Assembly (NCBI GenBank): GCA_012735315.1
Contig: JAAYHS010000137.1
Location: 1 to 34,204 of the forward strand
Origin: Bacillota bacterium
Lineage (GTDB): Bacteria; Bacillota; UBA4882; UBA8346
Reading direction: 5' to 3'
Length of the DNA: 34,204 bases
A program made the translations under genes and the position numbers. The notes under the pieces were generated by a model. That model was not told the DNA's origin, did not search any database, and saw only the letters and a list, made by a program, of their open reading frames with translations. Positions within the stretch are counted from its first letter, which is position 1. The number at the start of each line of letters is the position of its first letter. Below, piece by piece: positions 13,665 through 30,690 of the stretch.

Positions 13665-14360
13665 TCAATTGTTGGCCTGGCCGTAATAAGCCTTGGGGCC
13701 GTGTTTGCGCGAAAAATGTTTGTCCAATATATAATTTGGTAATGGTCTAAGCTTTGGATTTAGTTGGAGAGAGGCCAAAGCCATTCGCGCAATCTCCTCC
13801 AAAACGACACTGTTATGGACGGCTTCGGCAACGTCCTTGCCCCAAGTGAACGGCGCGTGACCGGCGACTAATACGCCGGGGAGATGTTGATAGTTTAAGT
13901 TTTGAAAACGTTCAATAATTACTTGAGCGGTGTTTTTTTCATATTCGGCGGCGACTTCGTCTTTAGTAAGGACTCGGGCGCAGGGAATGTCGCCGAAAAA
14001 ATAATCGGCATGGGTGGTTCCCAAACAAGGGATGTCCCGGTTCGCCTGGGCCCAAACGGTGGCATGAGGGGAGTGAGTATGGACCACTCCCCCGATCTCC
14101 GGAAAACCGCGGTAAAGGCCTAAGTGGGTGGGGGTGTCCGAAGAGGGTCGCAACTCGCCTTCCACTATCTCGCCGTCCAAGTTTAAAACAACCATGGAAT
14201 CAACCCGTAGTTTTTCGTATGCCACTCCACTGGGCTTAATCACTACCAGGCCCCGCTCCCGGTCAATGCCGCTGGCGTTTCCCCAAGTGTAAATCACCAG
14301 TCCGCGGCGGTTTAACTCCAAGTTGGCTTCCAATACTAGCTCTTTCAGTCTTTCAAGCAT
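13665..14360 (-). CDS. araD: L-ribulose-5-phosphate 4-epimerase
   Basis: A 231-residue class II aldolase/epimerase, exactly the length of E. coli AraD. It converts L-ribulose 5-phosphate to D-xylulose 5-phosphate, the last arabinose-specific step before the pentose phosphate pathway. Seen: TWGNASGID and [10 protein letters not shown] phosphate-binding motifs, the zinc-binding [12 protein letters not shown], and [13 protein letters not shown] 14360 (MLERLKELV) has AAGGA about 10 nt upstream. An in-frame ATG at 14393 lacks a site and would add 11 residues. It is the third gene of araA-araB-araD, separated from araB by a 179-bp spacer with repeats. Confidence 0.95.
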
Positions 14361-14408
14361 AATACCGCTATCCTTTTCTTTTAAGTATGTCATGAGATTG
14401 GGTCTATC

Positions 14409-14534
14409 GTTCCGGGTTCCGCGTTTCGGGTTCCGGGTTTGGTTTATGGCCTAGGGTTCCAAGCCTATCGTTCCGGGTTGCTTACATTGACAAAGCTATA
14501 GAAAATGCGGAACGTTGAACGCGGAACACGGAAC
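14409..14534. repeat. Degenerate GGAAC-type repeats in inverted arrangement
   Basis: The araB-araD spacer has short repeats around GTTCCGGGTT on the left (14409-14480) and their complements around GCGGAACACGGAAC on the right (14511-14534). The arms 14409-14427 and 14517-14534 can pair nearly perfectly over about 18 bp, so the transcript could form a long stem-loop between araB and araD. Function unknown. Confidence 0.65.
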
Positions 14535-14539
14535 TTCTT

Positions 14540-16222
14540 TTAAAGGGTTTGTAATTGCTTTTCCAAGAGTTTGCCAAGTTCAAGGTATCTTTGGTAAGAT
14601 TCTTGATACTTTTGCGCCGCCTCCGGCTGGGGAGTATAAGTTTTGTCAAACCCGCTGCTCATACGGGTTTGAGCTTCGCTAACCGAGGAATAAACTCCTG
14701 CGGTGACGGCGCCGAACATTCCGGCCCCCAAAGCGCAGGCTTGTTCGGAACGGGCGACTTTAATCGGCATATTTAAGACGTCGGCGGTTACTTGCATCAC
14801 GAAATCGCTCTTTTTAGCGATGCCGCCGATGGCGATCACTTGATTGATGGCGATGCCTTCATCGCGGAAACGTTCGACGATGGCTTTGGCGCCGAAAGCG
14901 GTTGCTTCCACCAACGCGCGATAAAACTTAGGAGCGGTGGTGCCCAGGGTCAGTCCGGCGACCGCCCCTTTTAAGGTTTGGTCGGCATAAGGCGTCCGGC
15001 GACCGTTTAACCAGTCGAGCGCGATTAAAGCGGTTTCTCCGCTTTTAATCTGAGCCGCTTCGACGGCAAGTTTCGTTAGGATTTTGGATTCGATTTCCGC
15101 TTGAAGTTTGCCAACCAACTCCGGGTTTACAAGCGAGGTTTCCGGTAAGATCGCTTCCAGAGGCCAGCACAGTAATTTGCGGAACCAAGCGTAAACGTCG
15201 CCATAGGCTGATTGACCGGCTTCCAGGCCGATGTAACCCGGAATCACCGAACCGTCTACTTGGCCGCAGATCCCGGCGACCAGTTTGTCACCGATCACTT
15301 CGGGAGCGGCAATCATGATATCGCAGGTGGAGGTGCCCATGATTTTAACCAGGGTCGCTTCGGTGATCTCCGCGCCGACCGCGCCCATATGGGCGTCAAA
15401 TGCACCGACGGCGACGGCGATGCCCGGTTTTAACCCCAACCGTTCGGCCCATTCGGATGTCAAATCACCGGCTTTAACATCCGCGGTATATGTTTCTCGG
15501 TAAAGACGTTCCCGCAAACCGGCCATCAACGGGTCGATCTTGGTCAGGAATTCTTCACCCGGAAGGCCGTTCCAATCCTGATGCCACATGGCTTTATGCC
15601 CGGCCGCGCAGCGGCTTCGTTTCAGCTGGGATGGGTTTTGAACGCCGGTTAACAAGGCCGGTATCCAGTCACAATGTTCGATCCACGAGTAGGCGTGTTC
15701 ACGGATCCCCGGATCCTCCCGTAAAACATGGAGAATCTTCGCCCAGAACCATTCCGAGGAATAGACGCCGCCTTCGTACTTGGTATAGTCGACGCCGCCC
15801 CAATTTTTAGCGATCCGGTTGATTTCGGCGGCTTCCCGGACTGAGGTGTGGTCTTTCCAGAGAATGAACATGGCGTTGGGATTCTCACTAAATTCTTCCC
15901 GCAGAGCCAAGGGGAGTCCGCTCCGATCAATGGCGCAGGGGGTGGAACCGGTAGTGTCGACGCCAATCCCGACCACCCGCGCTCCGCTTCCCGCGGGCAT
16001 TTTGGCTAAGGCGCCTTTCACGGCTGCTTCCATGCTTTCAATATAGTCCAGGGGATGCTGGCGGAATTGATTTTTATCCGGATCGCAATACAACCCTTTA
16101 ACCCAGCGGGGGTAATAAGCCACTTCGCCGGCGGCTTCCCTTCCGGTTGCAGTTTCGATAATCAAAGCCCGGACCGAATCCGTTCCAAAATCAAGTCCCA
16201 GAACATATTGTTCATTACTCAC
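14540..16222 (-). CDS. araB: Ribulokinase
   Basis: A 560-residue FGGY-family carbohydrate kinase that phosphorylates L-ribulose. N-terminal LGLDFGTDSVRALI is the ATPase phosphate-1 motif. Also seen are GIGVDTTGSTP, EHCDWIPALLTG, the GAFDAHMGAVGAE motif with the catalytic Asp, GTSTCDIM, ALDWLNGRRTPYAD, and AIGGIAKKSDFVMQ near the C terminus. Length matches AraB. The start is GTG 16222 with AAGGGAG 9 nt upstream. It lies 34 bp downstream of araA, a clear operon. The DFGTDS and DWLNGRRTP motifs distinguish it from xylulokinase and glycerol kinase. Confidence 0.96.
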   Translation of the reverse strand: MSNEQYVLGLDFGTDSVRALIIETATGREAAGEVAYYPRWVKGLYCDPDKNQFRQHPLDYIESMEAAVKGALAKMPAGSGARVVGIGVDTTGSTPCAIDRSGLPLALREEFSENPNAMFILWKDHTSVREAAEINRIAKNWGGVDYTKYEGGVYSSEWFWAKILHVLREDPGIREHAYSWIEHCDWIPALLTGVQNPSQLKRSRCAAGHKAMWHQDWNGLPGEEFLTKIDPLMAGLRERLYRETYTADVKAGDLTSEWAERLGLKPGIAVAVGAFDAHMGAVGAEITEATLVKIMGTSTCDIMIAAPEVIGDKLVAGICGQVDGSVIPGYIGLEAGQSAYGDVYAWFRKLLCWPLEAILPETSLVNPELVGKLQAEIESKILTKLAVEAAQIKSGETALIALDWLNGRRTPYADQTLKGAVAGLTLGTTAPKFYRALVEATAFGAKAIVERFRDEGIAINQVIAIGGIAKKSDFVMQVTADVLNMPIKVARSEQACALGAGMFGAVTAGVYSSVSEAQTRMSSGFDKTYTPQPEAAQKYQESYQRYLELGKLLEKQLQTL

Positions 16223-16256
16223 AATTAACAGCTCCCTTCGAACTGAGATTTAACCG

Positions 16257-17774
16257 TTAATCTCGAATCCCTTGGGCCAGGTGATAATACAGTTCGTTCC
16301 AGCGGAGTTCTTTTTTGAAAGCGTCAATTTTGGTGTCGGCATCGATCAACAGATACTCGATCCCCGCGATCTCCGCGAAATCCTCCAAGTGCTCCTTGGT
16401 AAGCGCCTGGCTGAATCCGGTGTGATGAGCTCCACCGGCCAGGATCCAGGCCTCGGCGGCGGTTTTTAAGTTGGGTTGCGGCGTCCAAAGGGCTCGGGCA
16501 ACCGGAAGCTTGGGCAGTTCGTGGTCGGGAGCGGTCGCTTCGACCTCGTTTACTAATAAACGGAAGCGGTTGCCCAGATCAATGATTGACGCATTCAGGC
16601 CCCGCCCCGCTGGCACATTAAAGACCAAACGCACCGGGTCCGCTTTGCCTCCGATACTGAGCGGGTGGATCTCCAAAGAAGGTTGACCGGCGGCGATTGA
16701 CTCACAAACCTCAAGCATATGGGCGCCTAATACCTTCATTTGATCTTTCTGGAAATGGTAAGTATAATCTTCCATAAAAGAGGTCCCGCCTTTTAGTCCA
16801 TAAGCCATAACTTTCATCGCCCGGACCAAGGCGGCGGTTTTCCAGTCGCCTTCGGCGCCAAATCCGTAACCGGCCGCCATTAAACGTTGTACCGCCAATC
16901 CCGGCAACTGGATCAGGCCGTGTAAATCTTCAAAGGTAGTAGTGAATCCTTTGAACCCGCCGGTTTCTAAAAACTTCTTTAACCCCAGTTCAATCCGGGC
17001 CGCTTCTTCCAGGGAATTTCTTTGCGCGCCGCCGTCTGCCAGTTCTCTTTGAACCCGGTATTTTTGATCGTATTCAGCCAGTAAAGCGCTGATCTCGGTT
17101 TGGGAAACGCTTTTGATCACGGTTACCAGATCTCCTACCCCATAACCGTTGACCGAATACCCCAGCCGGATTTGGGCGGCGACTTTATCGCCCTCGGTGA
17201 CCGCCACCTCCCGCATGTTATCGCCGAACCTGGCGAATTTAGCGCCTTGCAGGTCATTCCAGGCCAGCGCCGCTCTGATCCAGGTCGCCAAGCGTTCAAC
17301 GACCTCCTCGTCCTGCCAGAAACCGACAATCACCTTGCGGGCTTTACGCATTCGGGCGCCGATAAAACCAAACTCCCGATCGCCATGGGCCGATTGGTTC
17401 AGGTTCATAAAATCCATATCGATTTCCGACCAGGGGATGTCCCGGTTAAACTGAGTATGAAGATGAGCCAACGGCTTCGTCAATGCTTTTAATCCGGCGA
17501 TCCACATTTTGGCCGGGGAGAAAGTGTGCATCCAGGCGACGATACCGATACAGTTGGGAGCGGTATTGGCTTCGATGCAGAGATTGAGGATAGCGTCGGG
17601 GGTTGTTAAAACCGCTTTCGGAACGATCTTTACCGGTATTTTGGGATTTTCGGATAATGAAGTCGCTATTACCCGCGAATCTTCGGCTACTTGGCGCAGC
17701 GTTTCCTCGCCGTAAAGGTGTTGACTTCCCGTAACGAACCATACTTCTTTTTGATCGATATTGATATTAATCAT
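16257..17774 (-). CDS. araA: L-arabinose isomerase
   Basis: A 505-residue cytosolic enzyme that interconverts L-arabinose and L-ribulose, first step of the operon. Seen: the N-terminal [43 protein letters not shown], and the metal-site motifs [32 protein letters not shown] and GGAHHTGFS, which hold the two Glu and two His ligands known from E. coli AraA. ATG 17774 has AAAGGAG 7 nt upstream. A longer frame start at 17813 has no site. Divergent from the sugar ABC transporter across an 850-bp spacer. Confidence 0.97.
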
Positions 17775-17930
17775 GGCAATCTCCTTTCTTTGTAAAAATA
17801 ATATAAGAACCAAGCTTTTGATTTTACCCTATTCATTCATCCCGGAGATTTAGAACATTTTTAGAAGTAAGGACTTAACGCCGCTCTTCAAAGTCGCAAA
17901 AGTCGAGGATAAACCTTTTTTCAAAAAATA

Positions 17931-17957
17931 AAAAAACCTATATGTCCAGGTTTATAA
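17931..17957 (-). terminator. Weak terminator-like hairpin in araA leader
   Basis: On the reverse strand a 6-bp AAACCT/AGGTTT stem with an 8-nt loop is followed by a T-rich run. It lies about 160 nt upstream of araA, where it could attenuate the operon. The stem is AT-rich and weak. Confidence 0.3.
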
Positions 17958-18171
17958 TAATTGATCAATTTTCTGCAATCAACTTGGCAATATTTTTTTT
18001 TAATGTAATATTTTTTGATCTTTGTAACAAAGGATTTGTTAGGACGGTTTTCTTTGGGCGGCAAATTGCGGCCGATACGGCGGGGGGTGGATTTAAAGAC
18101 CGGCTATTTGAGATGTTCCGATTGTAGCAGTTAATAGAGGCTGAATGAGTTCTTTTTGATTAATGGCATAA

Positions 18172-18182
18172 ACGTTAAACGT
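18172..18182. promoter_or_regulatory. Palindromic operator candidate in araA-transporter spacer
   Basis: ACGTTAAACGT is an exact 11-bp palindrome about a central A, flanked on both sides by GGCATAAA (18166-18173 and 18184-18191). Its style is that of LacI-family sites. No regulator of that family is in the window. A reverse-strand TTGACA (18207-18212) nearby could be the -35 of the araA promoter. Confidence 0.35.
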
Positions 18183-18291
18183 GGGCATAAAGATTGATCG
18201 AAGAAATGTCAATGATTGTTTTAAATACCTCTCAAATTATCACGGATGGTGTCAAAAATATTATAGCATAAACAAAAAAACTCTATTCAAT

Positions 18292-18320
18292 TTGAACGGT
18301 TCGTTTTTTATATTTATATC
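18292..18320 (+). promoter_or_regulatory. Candidate promoter for sugar ABC transporter
   Basis: TTGAAC (18292-18297), a 17-nt spacer and TATATC (18315-18320), about 300 nt upstream of the binding-protein gene. The dyad 18330-18349 lies right after the -10. Confidence 0.35.
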
Positions 18321-18329
18321 AGATTAAAT

Positions 18330-18349
18330 TTTGGTTAACACCAACCAAA
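18330..18349. promoter_or_regulatory. 20-bp dyad followed by 9-bp direct repeats
   Basis: TTTGGTTAACACCAACCAAA has 7-bp perfectly complementary arms. It is followed by direct repeats AGTCTAAAA / AGTCTAAAG (18351-18368). Position after the candidate promoter suggests an operator for a repressor or for the AraC-type regulator at 27635. Apart from the sites listed, the 850-bp spacer 17775-18625 shows no supported gene. Confidence 0.4.
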
Positions 18350-18625
18350 CAGTCTAAAAAGTCTAAAGAAGGTTCAAATATGTGATTTTAGGTGATTTCG
18401 CTCGGTGATCGCGATATCGGACTCCGGTTGATTGCATTTTCGGCCGTTTATTATCCGGCGCAACAATAGAGGCGGCCGACAGGTTTGCAAAGGCCGCTTA
18501 AAAAATCGGAAAAAAGAGAAAAAGGGGGTATTTACGGGACAGATAAACGAAATTGAGAAGGTAATTTTCGAAACGTTGTATGGATGGGTTACCTTGTTTC
18601 GGTCTAAAAAATCAGAGGAGGTTTA

Positions 18626-19624
18626 ATGATGAAGAAGTTGACGAAAGCGGGATTATTACTGTTAGTGGCTGTTCTTGTTTTGTCTACCGTCTGCGGGATT
18701 ACGGCGGCGGCTCCCAAAAAACTGATTAAGGTCGGTATTGTAAATTTACCGCCGGAAGAATCCGGCTACCGTCAGGCCAATGTTGAAGACATGAACAAGG
18801 TCTTCTCGAAGGCAAACGGTTATGACGCGAAACAGACCAATACCGCCGACAACAGCGAGCAGATCGCTGCGGCTAGAGGGTACATTCGCGATGGAGTGGA
18901 TTATCTTCTGATTTCGGCCGCCAACGCGACCGGATGGGACGATGTCCTGCAGTCGGCAAAAAGAGCCGGTGTCAAGGTTATTCTCTTTGACCGGTTAATT
19001 GATACGGCTGCTTCGAACTATGAGGCCGCGCTTGTTTCCGATATGCAATATGAGGGTCAGTTGGCAACCGACTGGGTGTTAAAAAATGTTCCGAAACCGA
19101 TCAAACTGGTCCTGATTCGTGGTCAGTTGGGTAGCGCGGCGGAAATCGGGCGCAGCGCCCCGGTGCTCAAAGCCGCCAAAGAAGGTAAACTCACCATTGT
19201 GGCTGATGGTACCGGTGGAGACACTTGGAGCCTTGAGGAAGCCCGTAAAGTGGTTGAAGCCGCGATCGCCGCAAATAAGGATTTCAACGTCATCTATGCT
19301 CAGAACGACGGAATGGCGCAAGGCGCTGTCCAGGCGCTCGAGGCGGCCGGGATCAGCCACGGCAAGAACGGCAAGGTTAAGATCATCGGTTTTGACTTTA
19401 ACCGTTTTGCCCTTAGGAACGTACAGGCCGGTTACTGGGATGCCGATGTCCAGTGCAATCCGCGTCAAGCCAGCCAAATTGATCAGTGGATCAAAAGTGG
19501 TAAGATTCCCAAAGGAATCGTCTATCAGAAAGAAATGATCTTAACGACGGACACGATCACCGACGCGGATATTGAAAAATATGGGATCAACGCCGATCCC
19601 GGCAAGGGTGTTATCACAAGGTAG
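18626..19624 (+). CDS. Sugar ABC transporter substrate-binding protein (YtfQ-like)
   Basis: A 332-residue exported binding protein of the Peripla_BP_4 family. A signal peptide (KK, then a hydrophobic stretch to about residue 28, ITAAA cleavage region) precedes two alpha/beta lobes. Motifs ESGYRQANVEDMNKVF, DGVDYLLISAANATGWDDVL, VILFDRLID and AQNDGMAQGAVQALE match YtfQ-type furanose binders. The Cys at about 23 lacks a proper lipobox, so a lipoprotein is doubtful. AGGAGG fits ATG 18629 slightly better than ATG 18626. It heads an operon with one ATPase and two permeases. Ligand inferred to be L-arabinose (perhaps the furanose form) from the adjacent araBAD genes. Confidence 0.92.
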   Translation: MMKKLTKAGLLLLVAVLVLSTVCGITAAAPKKLIKVGIVNLPPEESGYRQANVEDMNKVFSKANGYDAKQTNTADNSEQIAAARGYIRDGVDYLLISAANATGWDDVLQSAKRAGVKVILFDRLIDTAASNYEAALVSDMQYEGQLATDWVLKNVPKPIKLVLIRGQLGSAAEIGRSAPVLKAAKEGKLTIVADGTGGDTWSLEEARKVVEAAIAANKDFNVIYAQNDGMAQGAVQALEAAGISHGKNGKVKIIGFDFNRFALRNVQAGYWDADVQCNPRQASQIDQWIKSGKIPKGIVYQKEMILTTDTITDADIEKYGINADPGKGVITR

Positions 19625-19642
19625 TTTTTATGCAATAGTTTA

Positions 19643-19684
19643 AGCAGTGCGGTGGTAGGATCTTATCCGGCCAACCGCACTGCT
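19643..19684 (+). other. Intercistronic hairpin after binding-protein gene
   Basis: AGCAGTGCGGT (19643-19653) pairs perfectly with ACCGCACTGCT (19674-19684) across a 20-nt loop. There is no T-run, so it is more likely an mRNA-stabilising or partial-attenuation element, as commonly found behind highly expressed binding-protein genes, than a full terminator. Confidence 0.75.
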
Positions 19685-19719
19685 GTTAATTTAGGTGATA
19701 CCGGTAAGGAGGTCTTTGG

Positions 19720-21222
19720 TTGCTGACAGAAATCATCCTTAAAATGGAAGGGATCAGCAAATCCTTTCCAGGGGTCAGAGCTCTGCATAATGTAGATTTC
19801 GCGCTCCGAAGGGGCGAAATCCATGCCCTGATGGGCGAGAATGGAGCGGGCAAGTCCACCCTGATCAAAATTTTAACCGGTGTTTACGAAAAGGATGCCG
19901 GCCGGATCATTTTGGATGGAAGGCCGGTTCACTTTAAGTCGCCGCAGGATGCGCAGAACATGGGAATTGGCGCGGTCTTTCAGGAAATTGCGCTGTGCCC
20001 CAATCTAACCGTGGCCGAGAATATGTTTATCGGTCGCAGCCGGGACGCTTTCGTTCAATGGAAGCAGATGAACGCCAAGGCGGCGCAGATGCTCGACTCC
20101 CTCGGTATTCCGGCGAGCCCGACCCAAGAACTCGCAAGCTGCTCAATCGCAGTCCAACAGATGATCGCCATTGCCCGCGCGGTCGATATGGACTGCAAGA
20201 TTCTCATCTTGGACGAGCCGACGTCTTCCCTTGACGAAGATGAGGTGCAGAAACTCTTCGAGCTCATGCGCCAACTGAAAGCGCGAGGTGTCGGGATCAT
20301 CTTCATTACCCACTTTATCGATCAAGTTTACGAGATCAGCGACCGGATTACGGTGCTTCGCAACGGCGAGTTGATCGGTGAATACGAAACAGCCGCGCTT
20401 CCCCAAATCGAGCTGATCTCGAAGATGATGGGAAAGGCGCTAAGTGATGTCGCGGCGATAAAAAAACATGAGCCGTCGAAATCGGAGGATAGTGTGCCGA
20501 TCTTCGAGGCCACGGCCCTTTCGAGCGCCGCCGGGGTAAGGCCTTTCAATTTCACGATCCGAAAAGGCGAAGTGAACGGGTTTGCCGGGCTGCTCGGCTC
20601 GGGCCGCAGCGAAAGTGTGCGCGCAATCTTTGCCGCCGACAAAGTGACCGGCGGTGAAGTCAAAATAAATGGTAAGAGGGTGAAGATCAAGACGCCCCTG
20701 GACGCCATGAAACAGGGAATCGGCTATCTGCCGGAGGACCGTAAGGGCGACGGGATCATCGACGAGCTTTCGGTGCGCGACAATATTATCCTAGCCTTGC
20801 AGGTTATGAAAGGCTTTTTTAAGCCTTTGTCGCGGAAACAGACGGAAGAATTCGCCGAACAGTTTATACAGCAACTGGAGATTAAAACTCCGTCCCTCAA
20901 CACGCCAATCAAATCGCTTTCCGGCGGCAACCAGCAGAAGGTTATTCTGGCCCGCTGGCTGCTCACCCACCCCAGGTACCTGATCCTCGATGAACCGACA
21001 CGGGGAATCGATGTCGGCACCAAGGTGGAGATTCAAAAACTTGTGCTCAAACTTGCGGAAGACGGAATGAGTCTGACCTTCATTTCATCGGAAATCGACG
21101 AAATGCTTCGCGTCTGCTCGCGGCTGATTGTAATGAAAGATCGTGAAATTATCGGCGAACTCAGTGGCATGAATTTGACGGAACAAAATGTGATGCACAT
21201 GATCGCCCAGGGAGGTAAATGA
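19720..21222 (+). CDS. Sugar ABC transporter ATP-binding protein (duplicated ATPase, YtfR/AraG-like)
   Basis: A 500-residue cytoplasmic ATPase with two fused ABC domains, as in RbsA, AraG, MglA and YtfR. First half: Walker A GENGAGKST (about 39-47) and Walker B ILILDEPTSSLD, with a degenerate signature (SCSIAVQQM). Second half: degenerate Walker A (GLLGSGRSE), canonical signature LSGGNQQKV and Walker B LILDEPTRGID. The start is TTG 19720 with TAAGGAGG 8 nt upstream; the first ATG (19744) has no ribosome site. It is followed after 1 bp by the first permease. It powers the importer formed with the genes at 18626, 21224 and 22341. Confidence 0.95.
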   Translation: MLTEIILKMEGISKSFPGVRALHNVDFALRRGEIHALMGENGAGKSTLIKILTGVYEKDAGRIILDGRPVHFKSPQDAQNMGIGAVFQEIALCPNLTVAENMFIGRSRDAFVQWKQMNAKAAQMLDSLGIPASPTQELASCSIAVQQMIAIARAVDMDCKILILDEPTSSLDEDEVQKLFELMRQLKARGVGIIFITHFIDQVYEISDRITVLRNGELIGEYETAALPQIELISKMMGKALSDVAAIKKHEPSKSEDSVPIFEATALSSAAGVRPFNFTIRKGEVNGFAGLLGSGRSESVRAIFAADKVTGGEVKINGKRVKIKTPLDAMKQGIGYLPEDRKGDGIIDELSVRDNIILALQVMKGFFKPLSRKQTEEFAEQFIQQLEIKTPSLNTPIKSLSGGNQQKVILARWLLTHPRYLILDEPTRGIDVGTKVEIQKLVLKLAEDGMSLTFISSEIDEMLRVCSRLIVMKDREIIGELSGMNLTEQNVMHMIAQGGK

Positions 21223-21223
21223 T

Positions 21224-22339
21224 ATGCCAAGGTTAAAAGCACACTTTGATCGTTTGTCTCATCTGTTCCTTCCCCTCTCTGTTCTGGTGATACTCATTAT
21301 CATTAATCTGATCAAGGGCGCTGATTACTTCAGGATTACCATGGTAAACGGGGCATTTTACGGGAACATCCCGAATATCCTGTTCGGCGCTTCGGAGTTG
21401 GTTATTCTGGCAATCGGAATGACTCTGGTTACTGCGGCCTCACGCGGACAGGACATCAGCATCGGGGAGAACGGCGCGATTGCTTCCGCCATTTTTGTCC
21501 AGTACGTCTTGAATGCCGGAGAGGTTACCTTGTGGACCATCCTGGCGGGTTTCCTGATCAGTTGCGTGGCCGGAATAATCATCGGCGCCTTCAACGGCGC
21601 TTTGGTTTCGTTCTTCAAGGTTCAGCCAATGGTGGCGACCCTCATTCTCTTTTTAGGAGGCAGATCGATCGCCTTTATTATTGACGGCAAAGTATCTCCC
21701 ATCCTGGCGAACGAGATCTCGAACCGAATCGGCACCGTAATACCGGGAGTGCCGATCCAAACGCCGATCATCCTGACCGTTGTCTTCATCGCTCTCGTGG
21801 CTGTGGTCCTCAAGACTACCAATCTCAGGCTCTATGTGGAGGCGGTGGGGATCAACCCAAGCGCGGCGCGGCTGAACGGCATTAACCCGAAAAAAATTAT
21901 CTTCCTGACCTTTTTGATCATGGGCGTCTGTGCCGCAGTCGCCGGTTTCATCGCGGTTAACAAGGCGGGGCGCCACGATAGTGTCAATCTGCTCAAGTTT
22001 ATCATGATGGACGCGATACTCGCCGTCGCCATCGGCGGAAATTCGCTGGGCGGCGGAAAGTTCAGCATTACCGGTTCGATTATCGGCGCGTATACGATCG
22101 AGATGCTGAACCGGACCCTGCTCAGACTGGAGGTAGAGCCCGAGGCGATTAAGGCCTTTAAGGCAGTCTTCATTATCATTCTCATGGTCATTGCCTCGCC
22201 GGTGGTGAGGGTTTTTGCCAGGAAAGTCTTAGACAAGGCGAAAACGATCGTCGCCGGCTACTCCGTACGCAAGACAGTCGGACTAAACAAGGCAGTGCTT
22301 TCCACAACGGACACATCTGCCAGGAAGAAGGAGGAGTAG
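21224..22339 (+). CDS. Sugar ABC transporter permease (YtfT-like)
   Basis: A 371-residue inner-membrane permease of the BPD_transp_2 (ribose/xylose/arabinose) family, with about eight to ten hydrophobic segments. GASELVILAIGMTLVTAASRGQDISIGE near residues 55-85 and NPSAARLNGINPKKI (about 210-224) are family landmarks; the latter is the cytoplasmic loop that contacts the ATPase. A charged C-terminal tail follows. GGGAGG precedes ATG 21224. It is one of two different permeases, as in E. coli ytfT-yjfF, so the membrane channel is probably a heterodimer. Confidence 0.93.
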   Translation: MPRLKAHFDRLSHLFLPLSVLVILIIINLIKGADYFRITMVNGAFYGNIPNILFGASELVILAIGMTLVTAASRGQDISIGENGAIASAIFVQYVLNAGEVTLWTILAGFLISCVAGIIIGAFNGALVSFFKVQPMVATLILFLGGRSIAFIIDGKVSPILANEISNRIGTVIPGVPIQTPIILTVVFIALVAVVLKTTNLRLYVEAVGINPSAARLNGINPKKIIFLTFLIMGVCAAVAGFIAVNKAGRHDSVNLLKFIMMDAILAVAIGGNSLGGGKFSITGSIIGAYTIEMLNRTLLRLEVEPEAIKAFKAVFIIILMVIASPVVRVFARKVLDKAKTIVAGYSVRKTVGLNKAVLSTTDTSARKKEE

Positions 22340-22340
22340 A

Positions 22341-23426
22341 ATGGAATCGCTAAGCACAACCAAACCGAAATCAAGACTGTCCAATTCTAATCTGCTTTTT
22401 ATCATCGCCGGGATTATCTTCATCCTGATGTATGGGTTTTCCCTGATCAGTTTTCCCGACAGTTTCATGCAGTTTCAGACCTTCTTTGACCTGTTCAACT
22501 TTAACGCGGCGCTGTTTATCATTACCCTTGGGATGTGCATCGTGATGATCGCAGGCGGCATCGATATTTCCGTCGGCGCGGTATGCGGCCTGGTCACCAT
22601 GGCCTGTGCCATGTTGTTGGAATCGGGAACGGAGAACGTTTGGGGCGCCTTATTTCTGGCGCTGGGGATCGGTCTCGCGTTTGGTATCATGCATGGATAT
22701 CTCATTGCCTATCTTGAAATCCAGCCCTTTATCATCACGCTGGCCGGAATGTTCTTGGCGCAAGGGCTGTTGACGACACTCCACAAAGATCCGATCAACG
22801 TGACCTGGCCTGCTTTTGTTGCCTTGCGGAATTATACAATCGAAATTCCTTGGCTGGGTGCCGTAAATAGGCTGGGTGTTTTCATCCCGTGTGAAATCAA
22901 ACCGGGCGTCTTCGTTGTAGTGGCCCTGGTTATTCTCTACGCCGTTCTTATGAAGTGGTCGCGTTTCGGACGCAATGTCTACGCTGTCGGCGGCAATAGT
23001 CAGAGCGCACGGATGCTCGGGATCAATGTCAAGAAAACGCTCTTCTTCTCCTATGTGATCTGCGGATTGACCGCCGGGATCGGGGGTTTCGTGTTCCTCA
23101 TGACCACAGGAGCCGGCAATATCGGAAATGGGGCGTTATTCGAGATCAAAGCGATCGCCGCCAATGTAATCGGGGGCATTTTGCTCAATGGCGGCGTGGG
23201 GAACTTGCTTGGCGCGCCAATCGGGACGCTGACCCTGTTAACCATCAATGAACTGATCCGGGCGGCGGGTGTCCAATCAAACTTACAAGCGATCGTCAGC
23301 GGTCTCTTGCTGTACCTCTTCATTGTACTGCAAAGCATCATTATGTCGTTGCGCGGCAGTAGTAAATTCAGACTTGCTTTGCCTTCCTGGCTGAAACTCA
23401 ACCGGCTGCAGGACAACGGCGACTAG
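22341..23426 (+). CDS. Sugar ABC transporter permease (YjfF-like)
   Basis: A 361-residue second permease of the BPD_transp_2 family. Family marks include ITLGMCIVMIAGGIDISVGAV (about 58-78), QPFIITLAGMFLAQGL, and GRNVYAVGGNSQSARMLGIN as the ATPase-contact loop. Start ATG 22341 follows AAGGAGGAG, with the preceding stop 1 bp away, so translation is coupled to the first permease. Last gene of the transporter operon. A 89-bp gap without a clear terminator separates it from the sensor genes, so readthrough into them is possible. Confidence 0.93.
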   Translation: MESLSTTKPKSRLSNSNLLFIIAGIIFILMYGFSLISFPDSFMQFQTFFDLFNFNAALFIITLGMCIVMIAGGIDISVGAVCGLVTMACAMLLESGTENVWGALFLALGIGLAFGIMHGYLIAYLEIQPFIITLAGMFLAQGLLTTLHKDPINVTWPAFVALRNYTIEIPWLGAVNRLGVFIPCEIKPGVFVVVALVILYAVLMKWSRFGRNVYAVGGNSQSARMLGINVKKTLFFSYVICGLTAGIGGFVFLMTTGAGNIGNGALFEIKAIAANVIGGILLNGGVGNLLGAPIGTLTLLTINELIRAAGVQSNLQAIVSGLLLYLFIVLQSIIMSLRGSSKFRLALPSWLKLNRLQDNGD

Positions 23427-23515
23427 GGAGCAACGGCAGCCTCCATCCCGGCTTTTGCCTGGTGAAAGGCTCAGAAGGTAAATAATGAAACATGCCTTTT
23501 TATACAGGTGAATTA

Positions 23516-24628
23516 ATGATGAATTCCAGCAGGATTAGACCAATCAAATACTGGGGCTCCCGCATTCAAATATTTTTGGAGCGGATTTCCATCCGTAAAA
23601 CGCTGTTTTGCTTGTTACTCGCGCTTACATTAACTCCGGTATTAATCGTGGGCTTAATCTCCCACGGTCATTTTAAAAAAGCGGTTACCGACAAAGTGGC
23701 CCGCTATTCCCTGGCTGAACTGGCGCAAGCGGTAAACAACATTCAACTGAAACTGGCCGACTATGAAGCCGTTTCTTTGCAATTATTTGTGAACAACGAT
23801 TTTATCACCACTCTGGAAAACTATTGCGACCTCGGAAACAATTCGAGGGATGTCGCGGAAACAGTGAAAGCTTGTTTTAATGAATATCTGAAAAACAATG
23901 CCGATATATTCGGTTTCATGTTCCTCGGCGATTCCGATCAAGTCGAGCCGATAGTCGTCACCAAAGATATTGGAAAGGATTTGATCGATTTAAGCCGAAA
24001 ATTCAAAGAAACCGGCGCTTGTCGTAATATCATGGAAGCCGACGGCGGGATCGTTTGGTCGGCCCCTCTTAAGATCAACCGGAGTAATTATGTGTTTTTA
24101 GGCCGGCTTATTAAAAGGATTTCCACCGGGGCGACTTTGGGGATATTGGCGATCATTATCGATGAAGATAAAATCGATCCCTTGGTGAATTTGGCGTTTT
24201 ATAACGAATTAAATAATTTCTGGGACGGAATTGAGCATTATTCGCTTCTAATTAACAGTAGGGGTGAAATAATCTCTTCACCGTTTAAAGAAGATATCGG
24301 CAAAAAAGCCACTCAACTAATTGATAAGATTTTGGCCGCGGAAGGAGAAAACTTGACCGGACATGAAGCCGGCAAGGCACGGCAGGGGAGTTTCATTATT
24401 ACGGTCAATCAAAAACAAAATTTGGTCACTTATAAAGCGGTGGGCGGCAAAATCAAGAACGCCGGGAGGAATAGTTGGTATTTGGTGAATTTGGTTTCCA
24501 CTTCTTTTTTATATAAAGAAAGACGGGCGGTAGCGCTTATAACCTTGGTTTTATGTTTGATCTTTGGGGCGCTTGCCGTTTGGGTATCTTTATATTTGAC
24601 GAAGCGGGTCGGCAAGGAACGAAAATGA
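23516..24628 (+). CDS. Membrane Cache-type sensor without HAMP or kinase domains
   Basis: A 370-residue protein with a cytoplasmic N-terminus, membrane helix 1 (about 31-53, TLFCLLLALTLTPVLIVGLI), an extracytoplasmic region of some 280 residues resembling the dCache domain of YesM-type kinases, and helix 2 near the C terminus (ALITLVLCLIFGALAVWVSLYL). It stops about 10 residues after helix 2, exactly where HAMP begins in the full kinase at 25814. I chose ATG 23516 because AGGTG lies just upstream; ATG 23492 has none. It may be a decayed kinase or an accessory sensor that pairs with the neighbouring kinase. No HAMP or kinase remnant is visible in any frame after the stop. Confidence 0.72.
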   Translation: MMNSSRIRPIKYWGSRIQIFLERISIRKTLFCLLLALTLTPVLIVGLISHGHFKKAVTDKVARYSLAELAQAVNNIQLKLADYEAVSLQLFVNNDFITTLENYCDLGNNSRDVAETVKACFNEYLKNNADIFGFMFLGDSDQVEPIVVTKDIGKDLIDLSRKFKETGACRNIMEADGGIVWSAPLKINRSNYVFLGRLIKRISTGATLGILAIIIDEDKIDPLVNLAFYNELNNFWDGIEHYSLLINSRGEIISSPFKEDIGKKATQLIDKILAAEGENLTGHEAGKARQGSFIITVNQKQNLVTYKAVGGKIKNAGRNSWYLVNLVSTSFLYKERRAVALITLVLCLIFGALAVWVSLYLTKRVGKERK

Positions 24629-24765
24629 GAGTATACCGCTCTCAGGATGTAATCGACATTATTTGTGGGTGTGATTCAGGTGAATTTTTCGAATTAAAAA
24701 TGCGGATGATTCGGTTAAATACTGACATGTTTCTTCAAATTTTGGGTCGAAAAGGTTATAATTAG
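24625..24765 (+). CDS. Small ORF overlapping the Cache sensor, unknown function
   Basis: A 46-codon frame. Its ATG overlaps the stop of the upstream gene (ATGA) and has AAGGA 6 nt upstream, both typical of translational coupling. The product is MRVYRSQDVIDIICGCDSGE followed by a Met/Arg/Leu-rich helix-like tail. I recognise no family, membrane helix or kinase fragment. It ends 8 bp before the binding-protein gene. It may be real, or an accident that keeps ribosomes moving to the next gene. Confidence 0.35.
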   Translation: MRVYRSQDVIDIICGCDSGEFFELKMRMIRLNTDMFLQILGRKGYN

Positions 24766-24773
24766 GATTAGGG

Positions 24774-25829
24774 GTGATCGGATTGAAAGGTTGTCGGATC
24801 TTTTGTCTGTTCTTCCTTTTCCTTTACGTGGCTTTAAATTTATTCTTAATTCCTCCGGGTTTAAGGCCCGGTTTTGAGGTGGCGGCCGCCGAGAGCGCGC
24901 CCCCTTCCGGCTCTTTCTATCCGAAGACCAGGCCGATTGTAATCGCCATTGTCCCTAAATCTTTGGATAATCCGGTTTTTGTCGATTCAATGGAAACAGC
25001 CGAATTGACCGCGAAGAAACTGGGGGTCAATTTGGAATGGGTGGCGCCTTTTAAGGTTGATCCGGATCTCCAAGTGAAAATAATTGAAGGTTTAATCTGG
25101 CGTAAAGTTGATGGGATTGCCATCAGCACCAGTGACCCTGAAAAAATAAGGAAAGTGATCGATAAGGCGGTAGCGGCCGGCATCAAAGTGGCGACGATTG
25201 ACGCCGATTGTCCGGGCAGCAAGCGCCTTTTTTATTGCGGCACCGATAATTATATGGCCGGATGGGCTTGCGGCGAGGCCATGGTTAAAATCGTCACCGA
25301 GCGGGGGCTGGCGAAAAAAAGATTACGGACGGCGATCCTGACGGGCGGTATTGAGGCGCATAACTTAAATGAACGAATTCGGGGTTTTAAGGAAGCGGTC
25401 GCCGGAAAACTTGATCTGGATTATGTGGCCTTATTGGCTTGTGATGACGATACCACCACCGGAGCCAAGATGGTTGAAGCGTATATTAAAGAGCATCCGG
25501 AAACCGATTTGTTTTATTTTGCCGGCGGATGGGCTTTTTTCGGACCCACGGAATCGATGCCTTTGTATCAGGAATGGTGCGATAACGGCGGGATCGCCGT
25601 ATCGATGGATACTTTTTATTCGGTATTGCAAGCCGCTAAAAAAGGATTTGCTCAGGCCTTAGTGGGGCAAGATTTCCGAAAAATGGGAGAACTTACCGTT
25701 AAATACCTAGTGGCCGCCGTTAAAGGGCAACCGGTGCCGATAGAATATATCGATACCGGATTGGAGTTGGCCGATCAATCCAATTTTGATCAATTATTGA
25801 GCGAGAAAAAACCATGGGAAATGAAATGA
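24774..25829 (+). CDS. Periplasmic-binding-protein sugar sensor (AraP-like)
   Basis: A 351-residue exported protein of the Peripla_BP_4 family. An N-terminal hydrophobic segment (about 9-28) may be a signal peptide or an anchor. Two lobes follow, with IVIAIVPKSLDNPVF, DGIAISTSDPEKIRKVIDKA and TIDADCPGSKRLFYCGTDNYMAGW. It stands apart from the transporter and overlaps the histidine kinase gene. The order binding protein-kinase-regulator matches AraPST of Geobacillus stearothermophilus and XylFII-LytS-YesN of Clostridium beijerinckii, where the binding protein presents sugar to the kinase rather than to a permease. GTG 24774 and TTG 24783 are both possible starts; TTG 24783 has the clearer site (AGGGGTG). 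Confidence 0.88.
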   Translation: MIGLKGCRIFCLFFLFLYVALNLFLIPPGLRPGFEVAAAESAPPSGSFYPKTRPIVIAIVPKSLDNPVFVDSMETAELTAKKLGVNLEWVAPFKVDPDLQVKIIEGLIWRKVDGIAISTSDPEKIRKVIDKAVAAGIKVATIDADCPGSKRLFYCGTDNYMAGWACGEAMVKIVTERGLAKKRLRTAILTGGIEAHNLNERIRGFKEAVAGKLDLDYVALLACDDDTTTGAKMVEAYIKEHPETDLFYFAGGWAFFGPTESMPLYQEWCDNGGIAVSMDTFYSVLQAAKKGFAQALVGQDFRKMGELTVKYLVAAVKGQPVPIEYIDTGLELADQSNFDQLLSEKKPWEMK

Positions 25830-27616
25830 ATGCTTTAAAAACAGTTTTTGCCGGATTTCAAAACCGGCTGGTCAATACTTTCAGGTTGCGATCATTACGG
25901 TCCAAGTTTATCCTGGCTTTTGTAATTTTAAGCACGATTCCCATGATTATCTTGGCCTTTTTTTCCTATGGCGTTTATCATGATATCTTGCAACAAAATA
26001 TTCAATCATATACCAGCGAGGTTATTGACCGGGTCGATCGGAATCTGGAGATTTATTTGAGCGATCTGGAACGGATTTTGGAGCTGCGCAACGATTATTA
26101 TAATCTGCAATTTATCAAATTAAGTCTGGCGGGAGATGTTGAAGGCAACCGCAAGTTTACCTTCCGGCTTTGGGAAAATCTAAATAACATCCGACATTAT
26201 AAAACCGAATTAAGAGATGTTTCCATTACGACTATGGGTGGGGTAACGGTTGGTTGTTACGGCGTGAGTCATACCGATTTGGCGCAAAATGAATTGTTTC
26301 AGACTTTGGCCAACCGGACTTCCAAAGATGACAGCATCGCCATTTGGGGGCCTCATTCGGACTGGTTGGGCGGCCCCGTGTTTTCGGTCGGGAAGGCGAT
26401 TCATGGCGACTACGATAATTTTTTGGGCATGATGTGCATCGACGTTGATGTGGAATTATTGGATCGAATTTGCGGGAATATCAGGCTCGGTAAGACCGGT
26501 TACATCATGTTGATTGACGAAGATAACCGGATTATTTATCATCCGAATCCGGAATTAATCGGGAGAAGTATCGGCGCTTTGTTGGGAGAAGCCTCGCTCA
26601 CCGATTGGGAACAGGGTTTTACGACTAAAATGGGACCGGGCAATCAACTGATCGGGGTTAAGACTTTCACTCCGGCCAACTGGAAAATTATCGGGCTCTC
26701 AAACCGATTCGAACTGGCTACGGAGATGCAAAAGATTACCGGGCTTTCGTTAACCATCATTTTAAGCACCATTCTGGTTTTGGCGATAATGGCGGTCTAT
26801 TTCGCCAATTTGCTGACCAATCCCTTGAAGGAATTGCAGCAATCGATGAGGCAAGCCTCGGAGGACTTAAATACCAACGCTGAGATCCATACCATGGATG
26901 AGATCGGGCAACTGAGCGAAACCTTCAATCAAATGTTGGCCCGGATTCGCCAATTGATGAATCAGAGCGTTCAGGAACAGAAAAAACTGCGGCGCACCGA
27001 AATGAGAGCCCAGCAGGAACAAATTAATCCCCATTTCATCTATAACACGCTCGATCTAATCATCGGCCTCTTGGAAACGAATAAAAATGAAGATGTGATC
27101 AACACGGTGGAAGCGTTGGGAGCGTTTTTCCGGACCAGTCTCAGCCACGGCCAGGAGTTAATCACCATCCGCGAAGAAGCCGAGCATGTGCGGAATTATC
27201 TTTATATCCAACGGATCCGCCATGGGGATAAATATGATTATTCCATTGAAATCGAGGAGCGATTGCTGAATAAGAAAACTATTAAACTGATCCTCCAGCC
27301 GATCGTGGAAAACGCAATCTATCATGGGGTTAGGGAGTTGGAAACCGCCGGCGGCCTGATCACGATCAAAGGTTTTTTGATTGAAGCTTCGAATACGATC
27401 TGCTTTCAAGTAATCGACAACGGGGTCGGAATGGAACCTTCCAAGATGGAGGAGATCAATCGCTGCTTGCGGGAGAGCGGGACCGAACAACGGTATTTCG
27501 GGATCAGCAATGTCAATGAACGGATTAGACTGGCTTTTGGACCGGAATACGGTTTGGAGTTGAGCGCTACACCGGGCGGCGGAGTTACGGCGACGATCAA
27601 ATTGCCGGTTGTTTGA
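25814..27616 (+). CDS. YesM/AraS-type sensor histidine kinase
   Basis: A 600-residue membrane kinase. Helix 1 (about 32-53), an extracytoplasmic Cache region, helix 2 (about 312-335), HAMP (to about 385), a His_kinase domain with INPHFIYNTLD (phosphoacceptor His407) and a HATPase domain with ILQPIVENAIYHG (N box), DNGVGM and FGISNVNERIRLAFG. The gene overlaps the binding-protein gene by 16 bp; an alternative ATG at 25826 forms an ATGA overlap. It would phosphorylate the regulator encoded 18 bp downstream. Sugar sensing through the adjacent binding protein is inferred from the AraPST precedent. Confidence 0.94.
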   Translation: MGNEMNALKTVFAGFQNRLVNTFRLRSLRSKFILAFVILSTIPMIILAFFSYGVYHDILQQNIQSYTSEVIDRVDRNLEIYLSDLERILELRNDYYNLQFIKLSLAGDVEGNRKFTFRLWENLNNIRHYKTELRDVSITTMGGVTVGCYGVSHTDLAQNELFQTLANRTSKDDSIAIWGPHSDWLGGPVFSVGKAIHGDYDNFLGMMCIDVDVELLDRICGNIRLGKTGYIMLIDEDNRIIYHPNPELIGRSIGALLGEASLTDWEQGFTTKMGPGNQLIGVKTFTPANWKIIGLSNRFELATEMQKITGLSLTIILSTILVLAIMAVYFANLLTNPLKELQQSMRQASEDLNTNAEIHTMDEIGQLSETFNQMLARIRQLMNQSVQEQKKLRRTEMRAQQEQINPHFIYNTLDLIIGLLETNKNEDVINTVEALGAFFRTSLSHGQELITIREEAEHVRNYLYIQRIRHGDKYDYSIEIEERLLNKKTIKLILQPIVENAIYHGVRELETAGGLITIKGFLIEASNTICFQVIDNGVGMEPSKMEEINRCLRESGTEQRYFGISNVNERIRLAFGPEYGLELSATPGGGVTATIKLPVV

Positions 27617-27634
27617 GTAAAGGGGTGAAGAAGA

Positions 27635-29227
27635 GTGTTCGGACTGTTGCTGGTCGAAGATGAAGAAGCGATCAGAGAGAAACTCATGAACAACGTGGCT
27701 TGGGCCGATTATGGCTTTGAACCGGTCTTAGGCGCGGCCAACGGCCTTGAAGCGCTGGCTCTCTTGGAGAAGCATCCCGTTAAGATTATGGTGACCGATG
27801 TTCAGATGCCGAAAATGAATGGGATCGAACTGATTAAAGAGATCAAACGCCGCGAATACCAGATGAAGATCATCGTTATTTCCGGCTTTGCCGAGTTTGA
27901 GTATGCGCAGGAATCGATCAAACTGAATGTCTCCGATTATTTGCTTAAACCTTTCGCCAGTAAAAGACTGCTGGAGGTGGCGCTGCGTTTCAAGGAGGAG
28001 CTGGAAAAGGAGGAAGCCGAGCGGTCTGAAATGAACGACCTGCGGGATCAGTTAAAAAAAAACAAGGCCGCTCTGATTGAAAAACTCTTGTTGGACCTGC
28101 TTAACGGCAATGCGGTCGCCAATATTGAGGCTCAGTTGGATTTTTTGGGGCTCGGCGAGATTAATAACCGCGACTTTCAAGTGGCGGTGATCGAGATTCC
28201 TGAGAACCAATTATCGGAAATGAACGAAGAAGAAAAGTATCTCCTCAACTTGCACCTTTATCAACAGGTACAACGGTTGGCTGATGCCAACGCCTATCGG
28301 AATTTTGTAGTTAACCACCATCGCAACCAAGCAGTATTAATCTTCATTGAACCGGATCAAAATTTGCCGCTGCGTTTAGAGGAGATTTTATCCCAGACGC
28401 ATTTGGCGTTAAAGCTTTCGGTCGCCTGCGGATTGGGCCGTCAATACCGGGATTTGGCGGATCTGGACGTTTCCTACCGGGAGGCGTGTTCCGCGTTGCA
28501 ATACCGTTATTTATACGGAATGAATCAGGTTTTCTTTATTAATGATCTTAATCCCGATAATCAATCCTATCATAAAATCCTCAATGCGCTCCATCGCCAT
28601 CCGATTTTCGACAATATCAAAATCGGAGCGGCTTCAGCCATCGAAGAGGATTTGAAAAGGATCATCAATGAGATCCGTCTGGCCAAACTGAATCCCGAAT
28701 TATCGAAGATGGTGGCCAGTAATTTGATTCTGTTAACCCTTGCCACCCTAAATGAACTGGGGTATAACGCCGGTGAAATATTCGGCGCCAACGACACTAC
28801 CCTGGTCGACCTGAATCGGGTAGAAAGTTTGGAGGAGTTGGAGCGGCTTTTGGATTCGTTTTTTGACCGGATTAATGATTATATCCGGCAAAAACGCGCT
28901 TCCCTCAATCATCAATTAGTGGAGGAGATCCGGCGGTATCTGGATGAAAATTTCGCAGCGGATATTACACATTCCGCCATGGCCAATCGTTATAACATCA
29001 GTCCCAGCTATCTCAGTCTGTTATTTACGGAGCGGACCGGCAAGAATTTCATTGATTATCTCACCGAACGCCGGATCAAGAAAGCCAAAGAGTTGCTGAA
29101 ACATACCGATATGAAAATTTATGAAGTTTCCAACGCCGTCGGATATAAGGATTCATTTTATTTCAGCAATTGTTTTAAAAAGATGGCGGGCATGTCTCCC
29201 AGCGAATACCGGGAGAATACCAAGTGA
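27635..29227 (+). CDS. YesN/AraT-type response regulator with AraC DNA-binding domain
   Basis: A 530-residue regulator. The receiver domain (1-120) has acidic EDEE, phosphoacceptor Asp55 in VTDVQMPKMNG and the KPF lysine. A central region of about 250 residues is typical of YesN proteins, and a C-terminal AraC double helix-turn-helix (about 430-530) contains YNISPSYLSLLFTERTGKNF and GYKDSFYFSNCFKKMAGMSPSEYR. GTG start 27635 has AAGGGGTGAAG upstream. Likely targets are the transporter promoter near 18292-18370 and perhaps araA. It is followed by hairpins and a terminator, closing the sensor operon. Confidence 0.94.
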   Translation: MFGLLLVEDEEAIREKLMNNVAWADYGFEPVLGAANGLEALALLEKHPVKIMVTDVQMPKMNGIELIKEIKRREYQMKIIVISGFAEFEYAQESIKLNVSDYLLKPFASKRLLEVALRFKEELEKEEAERSEMNDLRDQLKKNKAALIEKLLLDLLNGNAVANIEAQLDFLGLGEINNRDFQVAVIEIPENQLSEMNEEEKYLLNLHLYQQVQRLADANAYRNFVVNHHRNQAVLIFIEPDQNLPLRLEEILSQTHLALKLSVACGLGRQYRDLADLDVSYREACSALQYRYLYGMNQVFFINDLNPDNQSYHKILNALHRHPIFDNIKIGAASAIEEDLKRIINEIRLAKLNPELSKMVASNLILLTLATLNELGYNAGEIFGANDTTLVDLNRVESLEELERLLDSFFDRINDYIRQKRASLNHQLVEEIRRYLDENFAADITHSAMANRYNISPSYLSLLFTERTGKNFIDYLTERRIKKAKELLKHTDMKIYEVSNAVGYKDSFYFSNCFKKMAGMSPSEYRENTK

Positions 29228-29520: not shown

Positions 29521-29652
29521 CGTTTAAATCCTCCCGTAACAAAATAACCGACCGGAGCAGGGCGGTGATTTTAAAAATCGATGCCAAAGGCACGGTCCAA
29601 AGAGCATAGCTTACTTAATACTATATACTAAAAAGTCTAAAGGAAAGAAGTG

Positions 29653-30690
29653 ATGAATGTGTCGACCCAATGCCCTCCGGGTTCGTTTGTTTATAGTATC
29701 AAAGCGGGAGATACATTGTTCAGGCTTGCCCAAACATACGGCACCACCGTTAACGCTATTATCGCCATCAATCCGGGCATCAATCCCAATGCGCTTCAAA
29801 TCGGCCAACGAATCTGCATCCCCGGCGGAGCTCCGGTTGAATGCCCCGAAAATAGTTTTCCCTATGTAATCAGGAGTGGGGACACTTTATTCGCCTTAGC
29901 GCGACAATTTGGAACCACCGTAGCGGCGATTACCGCGATTAATCCGGGGATTGATCCCAATGCGCTTCGAGTTGGGCAAACGATTTGCATCCCCGGCGAG
30001 CCGACCGTAACTTGTCCGTCAGGGAGCTTTTCCTATACAATTCAGCGGGGTGACACGCTGTTTGCGTTGGCCCAAAGATACAACACCACCGTATCGGCCA
30101 TTTTAGCGCTTAACCCCGGCCTTGACCCCAACGCCCTCCAAATAGGCCGGATAATCTGCATTCCCGGCGCGGCGCCGCCAACCTGTCCGGAAGGTACCGT
30201 TTCTTATGAGATTCGAAGCGGGGACACTTTGTTCGCCTTAGCGCAACGCTTCGGGACGACCGTAGCGGCCATTTTGGCTCAAAACCCCGGTCTTGATCCC
30301 AACGCGCTCCGGATCGGCCAAATAATCTGTATTCCGCAAGCGGCGCCCGCTTGTCCGGGGGGTACTCTTTACACGATTCAGCAAGGCGACACCCTGTTTT
30401 TACTCGCCACCCGGTTCGACATTTCCGTGGGAGCGCTCCAAGCGGCCAATCCGGGGTTAGACCCGAACCGTTTGATTCCCGGACAACGGATCTGCATCCC
30501 GGCGACGCCGCCGATTACTTGCCCAGGCAATAACACTTATACCATCAGAGTGGGAGAAACGTTGAGTTCAATCGCGGAAAGGTTCACGGTTAGCGCGGCG
30601 GATATCTTAATCCTCAATCCCGGATTGCGACCCAGCGACTTTATTCCGGGCAGGACTATTTGTTTACCGACGACCCAGGCGCCGGTTTAA
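29653..30690 (+). CDS. Six-LysM-repeat protein with paired cysteines
   Basis: A 345-residue protein made of six LysM modules of about 57 residues (period about 171 bp, from 29671). Each has a GDTLF-type start, an INPG or LNPG middle and an ICIPG-type end, and binds N-acetylglucosamine glycans in the family. There is no signal peptide and no catalytic domain. Each module carries a Cys in a CP linker and a Cys in ICIP/ICLP, 12 in all, so disulfide pairing is plausible. The start is ATG 29653 after AAGGAAAG. Similar signal-less LysM proteins in spore-formers are coat or cortex proteins, but spore localisation here is only an inference. It is convergent with an amidase. Confidence 0.9.
   Translation: MNVSTQCPPGSFVYSIKAGDTLFRLAQTYGTTVNAIIAINPGINPNALQIGQRICIPGGAPVECPENSFPYVIRSGDTLFALARQFGTTVAAITAINPGIDPNALRVGQTICIPGEPTVTCPSGSFSYTIQRGDTLFALAQRYNTTVSAILALNPGLDPNALQIGRIICIPGAAPPTCPEGTVSYEIRSGDTLFALAQRFGTTVAAILAQNPGLDPNALRIGQIICIPQAAPACPGGTLYTIQQGDTLFLLATRFDISVGALQAANPGLDPNRLIPGQRICIPATPPITCPGNNTYTIRVGETLSSIAERFTVSAADILILNPGLRPSDFIPGRTICLPTTQAPV

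Follow-up and report, generated by a model that had tools for sequence, protein, structure and literature searches.

Three-component sugar sensors are thought to need only a binding protein, a kinase and a regulator. In AraPST these are a binding protein, a sensor kinase and an AraC-type regulator encoded beside arabinose genes; we know of no additional output-less receptor in AraPST and, from general knowledge and the literature searched, of no fourth component in the described three-component sugar systems. AraPST is mentioned as the arabinose-sensing system of Geobacillus in PMC4194401. In the CuaDSR system of Ruminiclostridium cellulolyticum, a second binding protein, a class-I kinase and an AraC-type regulator control a sugar ABC importer, and the binding protein touches the kinase ectodomain with or without sugar (PMC10384115). 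Docking of a binding protein onto a kinase ectodomain is also described for XylFII-LytS (cited in PMC6321045 and PMC9769921). In Corynebacterium glutamicum, the receptor-like membrane protein GlnX lacks an output domain and ends in a tail of about 8 cytoplasmic residues, and its gene shares an operon with those of the binding protein GlnH and the kinase PknG, between the two (PMC9769921).

The window analysed here (the whole stretch of 34,204 nucleotides) holds a set of this type on its forward strand, next to a gene for an output-less dCache membrane protein of 370 aa (Q; 23516–24628). Domain searches identified an AraP-like sugar-binding protein (24774–25829; Peripla_BP_4), an AraS-like sensor histidine kinase (25814–27616; dCache_1, HAMP, His_kinase and HATPase_c) and an AraT-like response regulator (27635–29227; receiver, GGDEF_2-like and AraC HTH domains), bearing out the AraP-AraS-AraT-like set that the initial annotation had placed after Q. 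A sugar ABC importer of the ribose/galactofuranose type (binding protein, ATPase and two permeases, also by domain search) precedes Q on the same strand at 18626–23426, and the neighbours of Q show the AraPST/CuaDSR-type layout of adjacent binding protein, His_kinase-family kinase and AraC-type regulator near a sugar importer. As in AraPST, arabinose genes lie close by: an araD-like class II aldolase-family gene, an araB-like FGGY kinase gene and the L-arabinose isomerase gene araA (13665–17813, reverse strand). These divergent genes make L-arabinose the probable sensed sugar. CuaDSR, in contrast, has three components only, responds to cellobiose and comes without a headless receptor, and XylFII-LytS, as portrayed in the papers that cite it, has a four-helix-bundle LytS sensor instead of dCache and no fourth protein. 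The best functional analogue of the Q system is GlnH-GlnX-PknG, the one direct precedent for headless receptors in the literature searched. GlnX differs from Q in having four transmembrane (TM) helices and a four-helix-bundle sensor, whereas Q has two TM helices and a dCache-type sensor; PknG, a Ser/Thr kinase, has no sensor, whereas the window kinase carries its own.

The frame of Q is intact, with 370 codons from the ATG at 23516 to a stop codon ending at 24628, and is preceded by AGGTGA (23506–23511, forward strand), read from the sequence as its likely ribosome-binding site and identical in three relatives (G020, G022 and G001); frame and ribosome site are thus as initially reported. A second in-frame ATG lies upstream at 23492, and relatives begin at the MMN-equivalent. 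The protein consists of a variable N-terminal stretch of 29 residues, a TM helix (residues 30–50; 23603–23665), about 290 extracytoplasmic residues with the dCache-type sensor (residues 51–338; 23666–24529; domain search and conservation), a second TM helix (residues 339–360; 24530–24595) and a short cytoplasmic tail of about 10 residues (24596–24625), which is unconserved in orthologues. Hydropathy, on which the helix assignments are based, peaks at residues 30–48 and 339–357, with 13 residues remaining after the second window; two TM helices flanking an extracytoplasmic domain were found in the window protein and in 14 orthologues, whose tails extend 5–19 residues beyond the TM2 window. The one convincing family match of Q was to dCache_1 (PF02743), with an E value of 8e-8 and 32.5 bits, below the Pfam cut-off of 45 bits; the orthologue L033 matched above it (48.6 bits). 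A Pfam domain search of Q gave no match to HAMP, His_kinase, HATPase or MCPsignal, in keeping with the earlier claim that HAMP, phosphoacceptor and ATPase domains are missing and that the chain ends about 10 residues past TM2. In the orthologue alignment, invariant residues cluster in the first extracytoplasmic helix, the junction and the proximal subdomain, and none falls in the N-terminal 29 residues or the cytoplasmic tail. The R-x-W/Y-Y/F motif of amino-acid-binding dCache domains is not present in Q, an observation of little weight; a monomer structure predicted from three sequences had a mean pLDDT of 35, and a PDB sequence search with Q returned no useful match.

Our analysis of the sensor modules places Q with chemoreceptors. 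Its closest full-length kin are dCache chemoreceptors of the same sensor family (34–36% identity; L104 3627–5855 and L043 12085–14313), which carry HAMP and MCPsignal whereas Q has neither. A profile of Q scored chemoreceptors at up to 375 bits and the neighbouring kinase at about 20 bits, the latter match being limited to TM1 and the following helix; profile-profile comparison of Q with the kinase sensor (hhalign) gave 94% probability, 20% identity and an E value of 1e-7. In a tree of 62 sensor modules, the 14 Q proteins formed one clade (94/98), and in this unrooted tree its sister was a group of six chemoreceptors (98/91), the two together supported at 100/99, in a mostly chemoreceptor group. 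Q therefore shares the sensor of methyl-accepting chemotaxis proteins by common descent, without their HAMP and MCPsignal domains, and it has neither the phosphoacceptor nor the ATPase domain of a sensor histidine kinase. Because tree and profile scores ally Q with chemoreceptors, the origin as a half-kinase proposed in the initial annotation was rejected; the kinase-like design noted there reflects a general dCache plan common to both proteins, and the close resemblance did not hold up. Q would thus be best called a headless chemoreceptor, with the neighbouring kinase as only a distant dCache homologue, and loss of the HAMP and signalling hairpin from a chemoreceptor ancestor appears the most economical reading. 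Relatives of 740 residues, considered as membrane AraC regulators, proved to be chemoreceptors by Pfam. The same sensor family also occurs with a TM helix and a LuxR-type HTH in L106 (7156–8535), L141 (2469–3887) and, by reading only, L142 (2406–3971), apparently as membrane-tethered transcription factors.

A search for kinase-less orthologues beside AraPST-like sets, as had been suggested, found them in 14 of 100 related genomes and in two families (one genome per species; 40–75% identity, alignment A1). The genomes are drafts, probably metagenome-assembled (two are titled MAG). The next gene 3′ of Q was the binding-protein orthologue in all 14, and kinase and regulator come next as far as the contigs extend, with the exceptions of G027, where the binding-protein and kinase genes seem broken or mis-assembled, and G028, whose contig stops inside the binding protein. 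Neither a full-length kinase nor a HAMP remnant was seen at the position of Q in any relative examined. Pairwise dN/dS of Q (NG86, where dS was finite) was 0.05–0.30, well below 1, and that of kinase, binding protein and regulator about 0.03–0.15. These values indicate purifying selection on Q, but within the window's clade its rate of evolution is about two to three times that of the neighbouring genes, so that its constraint there is looser than theirs. Headless members of the Q clade were confined to the class of the window in a search of 398 genomes across the phylum. Two headless-looking candidates were rejected: L050 (G003), a gene cut by the contig end, and L127 (G024), a near relative of the chemoreceptor L126 with an in-frame stop. 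A second, independent headless dCache membrane protein was observed in another gene neighbourhood (L051 7819–8940 and L052 4163–5320, in G020 and G021).

Comparison with the same-genus genome G001 gave third-position identities of 0.64–0.85 over the four importer genes; the value falls to 0.41 in the opening bin of Q and is 0.41–0.58 across Q, binding protein and kinase; the regulator was likewise strongly diverged (pS 0.85). The change lies downstream of 23426 and no further than 300 bases into Q, and no comparable jump was seen against G020 and G022. In G003 and G007, the foursome adjoins another kind of ABC importer, with identities of about 53% for the ATPase and 34–39% for the permeases, and in most genomes of genus g8 it lacks adjacent ABC genes. 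The divergence jump at the start of Q, together with the varying or absent importer, groups Q with binding protein, kinase and regulator in one inheritance unit. Genus g8 also has an extended cluster of chemoreceptor, binding protein, Q, binding protein, kinase and regulator (L045 8983–13685, L043 9839–14313 and L046 4745–9197), which adjoins an L-lactate permease in L045 and L043.

One relative, G013, has lost Q. The whole arabinose locus is present there at 86–94% identity, and the gap of about 225 bp between permease and binding protein corresponds to the 3′ part of Q, interrupted by a frameshift and stops; the scar includes a TM2 remnant of roughly 130 bp, and no Q was found elsewhere in the genome. 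The genes for binding protein, kinase and regulator remain intact, with identities of about 90% (90–92%). Because G013 lost Q and yet retains the other three genes, Q appears to be a non-essential modulator, dispensable for keeping the system, and G013 and the other species form a natural pair without and with Q. The Q position lies beyond the contig ends in G021 and G012, and in G002 kinase and regulator are retained, but neither a binding protein nor Q adjoins them; a search for the permease in these three genomes and others, made to judge the absence of Q, found nothing. In G026 and G028, a paralogous second locus (L099/L100) comprises importer genes, a binding protein 51% identical to that of the window, a regulator and a kinase that itself carries a Q-type sensor (217 bits). 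This arrangement ties Q-type sensors to this binding-protein family and is suggestive of docking.

Taken together, we propose that Q is a headless chemoreceptor and a fixed fourth AraPST-type component that tunes L-arabinose sensing from outside, a reading that in our judgement is evenly balanced between right and wrong. An ancestral dCache chemoreceptor would have lost its HAMP and signalling hairpin to become Q, which then joined binding protein, kinase and regulator in an L-arabinose module. Because no conserved residues lie inside the cell, Q would work through its extracytoplasmic and membrane parts, most likely by docking the AraP-like binding protein and/or packing against the kinase dCache dimer, and would thereby tune the amount of sugar-loaded binding protein that reaches the kinase. 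In genus g8, however, the gene for another binding protein precedes Q, often along with that of a chemoreceptor, and this second binding protein could instead be its partner. The version we favour has Q as a decoy or desensitising feedback element. Q starts 89 bp past the permease gene, and a promoter-like box (TTCAAA-17-TATAAT, 24734–24762, forward strand) lies between Q and the binding-protein gene, reading GGTTATAAT in the window, G020, G014, G013 and G001 and GGTATAAT in G022; the promoter scan overall returned no more such sites than chance, and the support for this box is its recurrence across the six genomes. Since Q closely follows the importer while the other three genes have this recurring box, Q may be induced with the importer and the other three transcribed from their own promoter, and gene order and box hint weakly at feedback. 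A comparable split is described in R. cellulolyticum, where cuaDSR is expressed constitutively and CuaR up-regulates cuaABC (PMC10384115).

Its faster evolution and its deletion in G013 would also be expected if Q were a pseudogene being lost, derived by decay or truncation from a kinase or chemoreceptor gene. This is very improbable, since the 14 intact kinase-less orthologues and low dN/dS refute the decayed-gene reading as stated: the orthologues share their truncation point, intact frames and a conserved core, they form a single clade rather than scattered truncations, and a HAMP or kinase remnant downstream of Q was not seen. The initial annotation thus stands in treating Q as a functional membrane protein that serves an AraPST-like set as an accessory subunit, and not in its 'half-kinase' label. 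Q might instead assist the ABC importer, perhaps by giving the transport binding protein a place to dock, as its position after the permease in the window and the binding-protein gene preceding it in g8 and G003 would allow; however, Q is kept beside a different importer or none, and its divergence profile tracks the kinase block and not the importer, which leaves such a role improbable. We judge a part in chemotaxis, with Q and a chemoreceptor of its sensor family forming mixed dimers, to be similarly remote. The nearest kin of Q are chemoreceptors, one of which is encoded two genes upstream of Q in several g8 genomes, and the window genome (G000) has 7 MCPsignal domains; however, Q is fixed to the kinase set and not to a chemoreceptor, and because no other Q-like sensor was detected in the window genome despite those 7 domains, a chemotaxis role there is unlikely.

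The opposite sign of effect, with Q as a positive co-receptor that raises sensitivity in a heteromer with the kinase or by presenting the loaded binding protein, is possible, though we consider it rather unlikely. Q and the kinase are co-inherited, both have a dCache domain, their TM1 and first-helix segments are related, and a Q-type sensor, the same binding-protein family and a kinase share one locus in L099/L100; however, the kinase has its own sensor, is kept without Q in G013, and shows low sequence similarity to Q in the sensor. A further idea is that a chemoreceptor sensor, having lost its whole signalling half, now serves a sugar system of binding protein, kinase and regulator as a dedicated fourth component that sets sensitivity externally, as a decoy or co-receptor without output; we offer it tentatively, with somewhat less than an even chance of being correct. 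If true, Q would add a conserved fourth member to three-component sugar sensors, receptors could function through nothing more than competition for a binding protein or its presentation, and the finding would hint at the job of some bacterial 'cache-only' membrane proteins and provide a bacterial counterpart of decoy receptors.

Outside Q, the arabinose locus (13665–29227) is 85–94% identical to that of species from a different family (f2), whereas a further gene of the window contig is nearest to its own genus (88%, versus 64–74% in f2); the locus was therefore probably exchanged between families. Within the response regulator, a run of 9 A at 28054–28062 lies between the receiver and the rest of the protein; the run has 8 A in G020 and 11 A in G022 (L033 13216–14831 and L034 12487–14105), giving separate receiver and AraC-type ORFs, and these differences could reflect phase variation, transcriptional slippage or assembly error. 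Just past the regulator, 29650–30690 encodes a protein with about six LysM-like repeats, as read from its translation.
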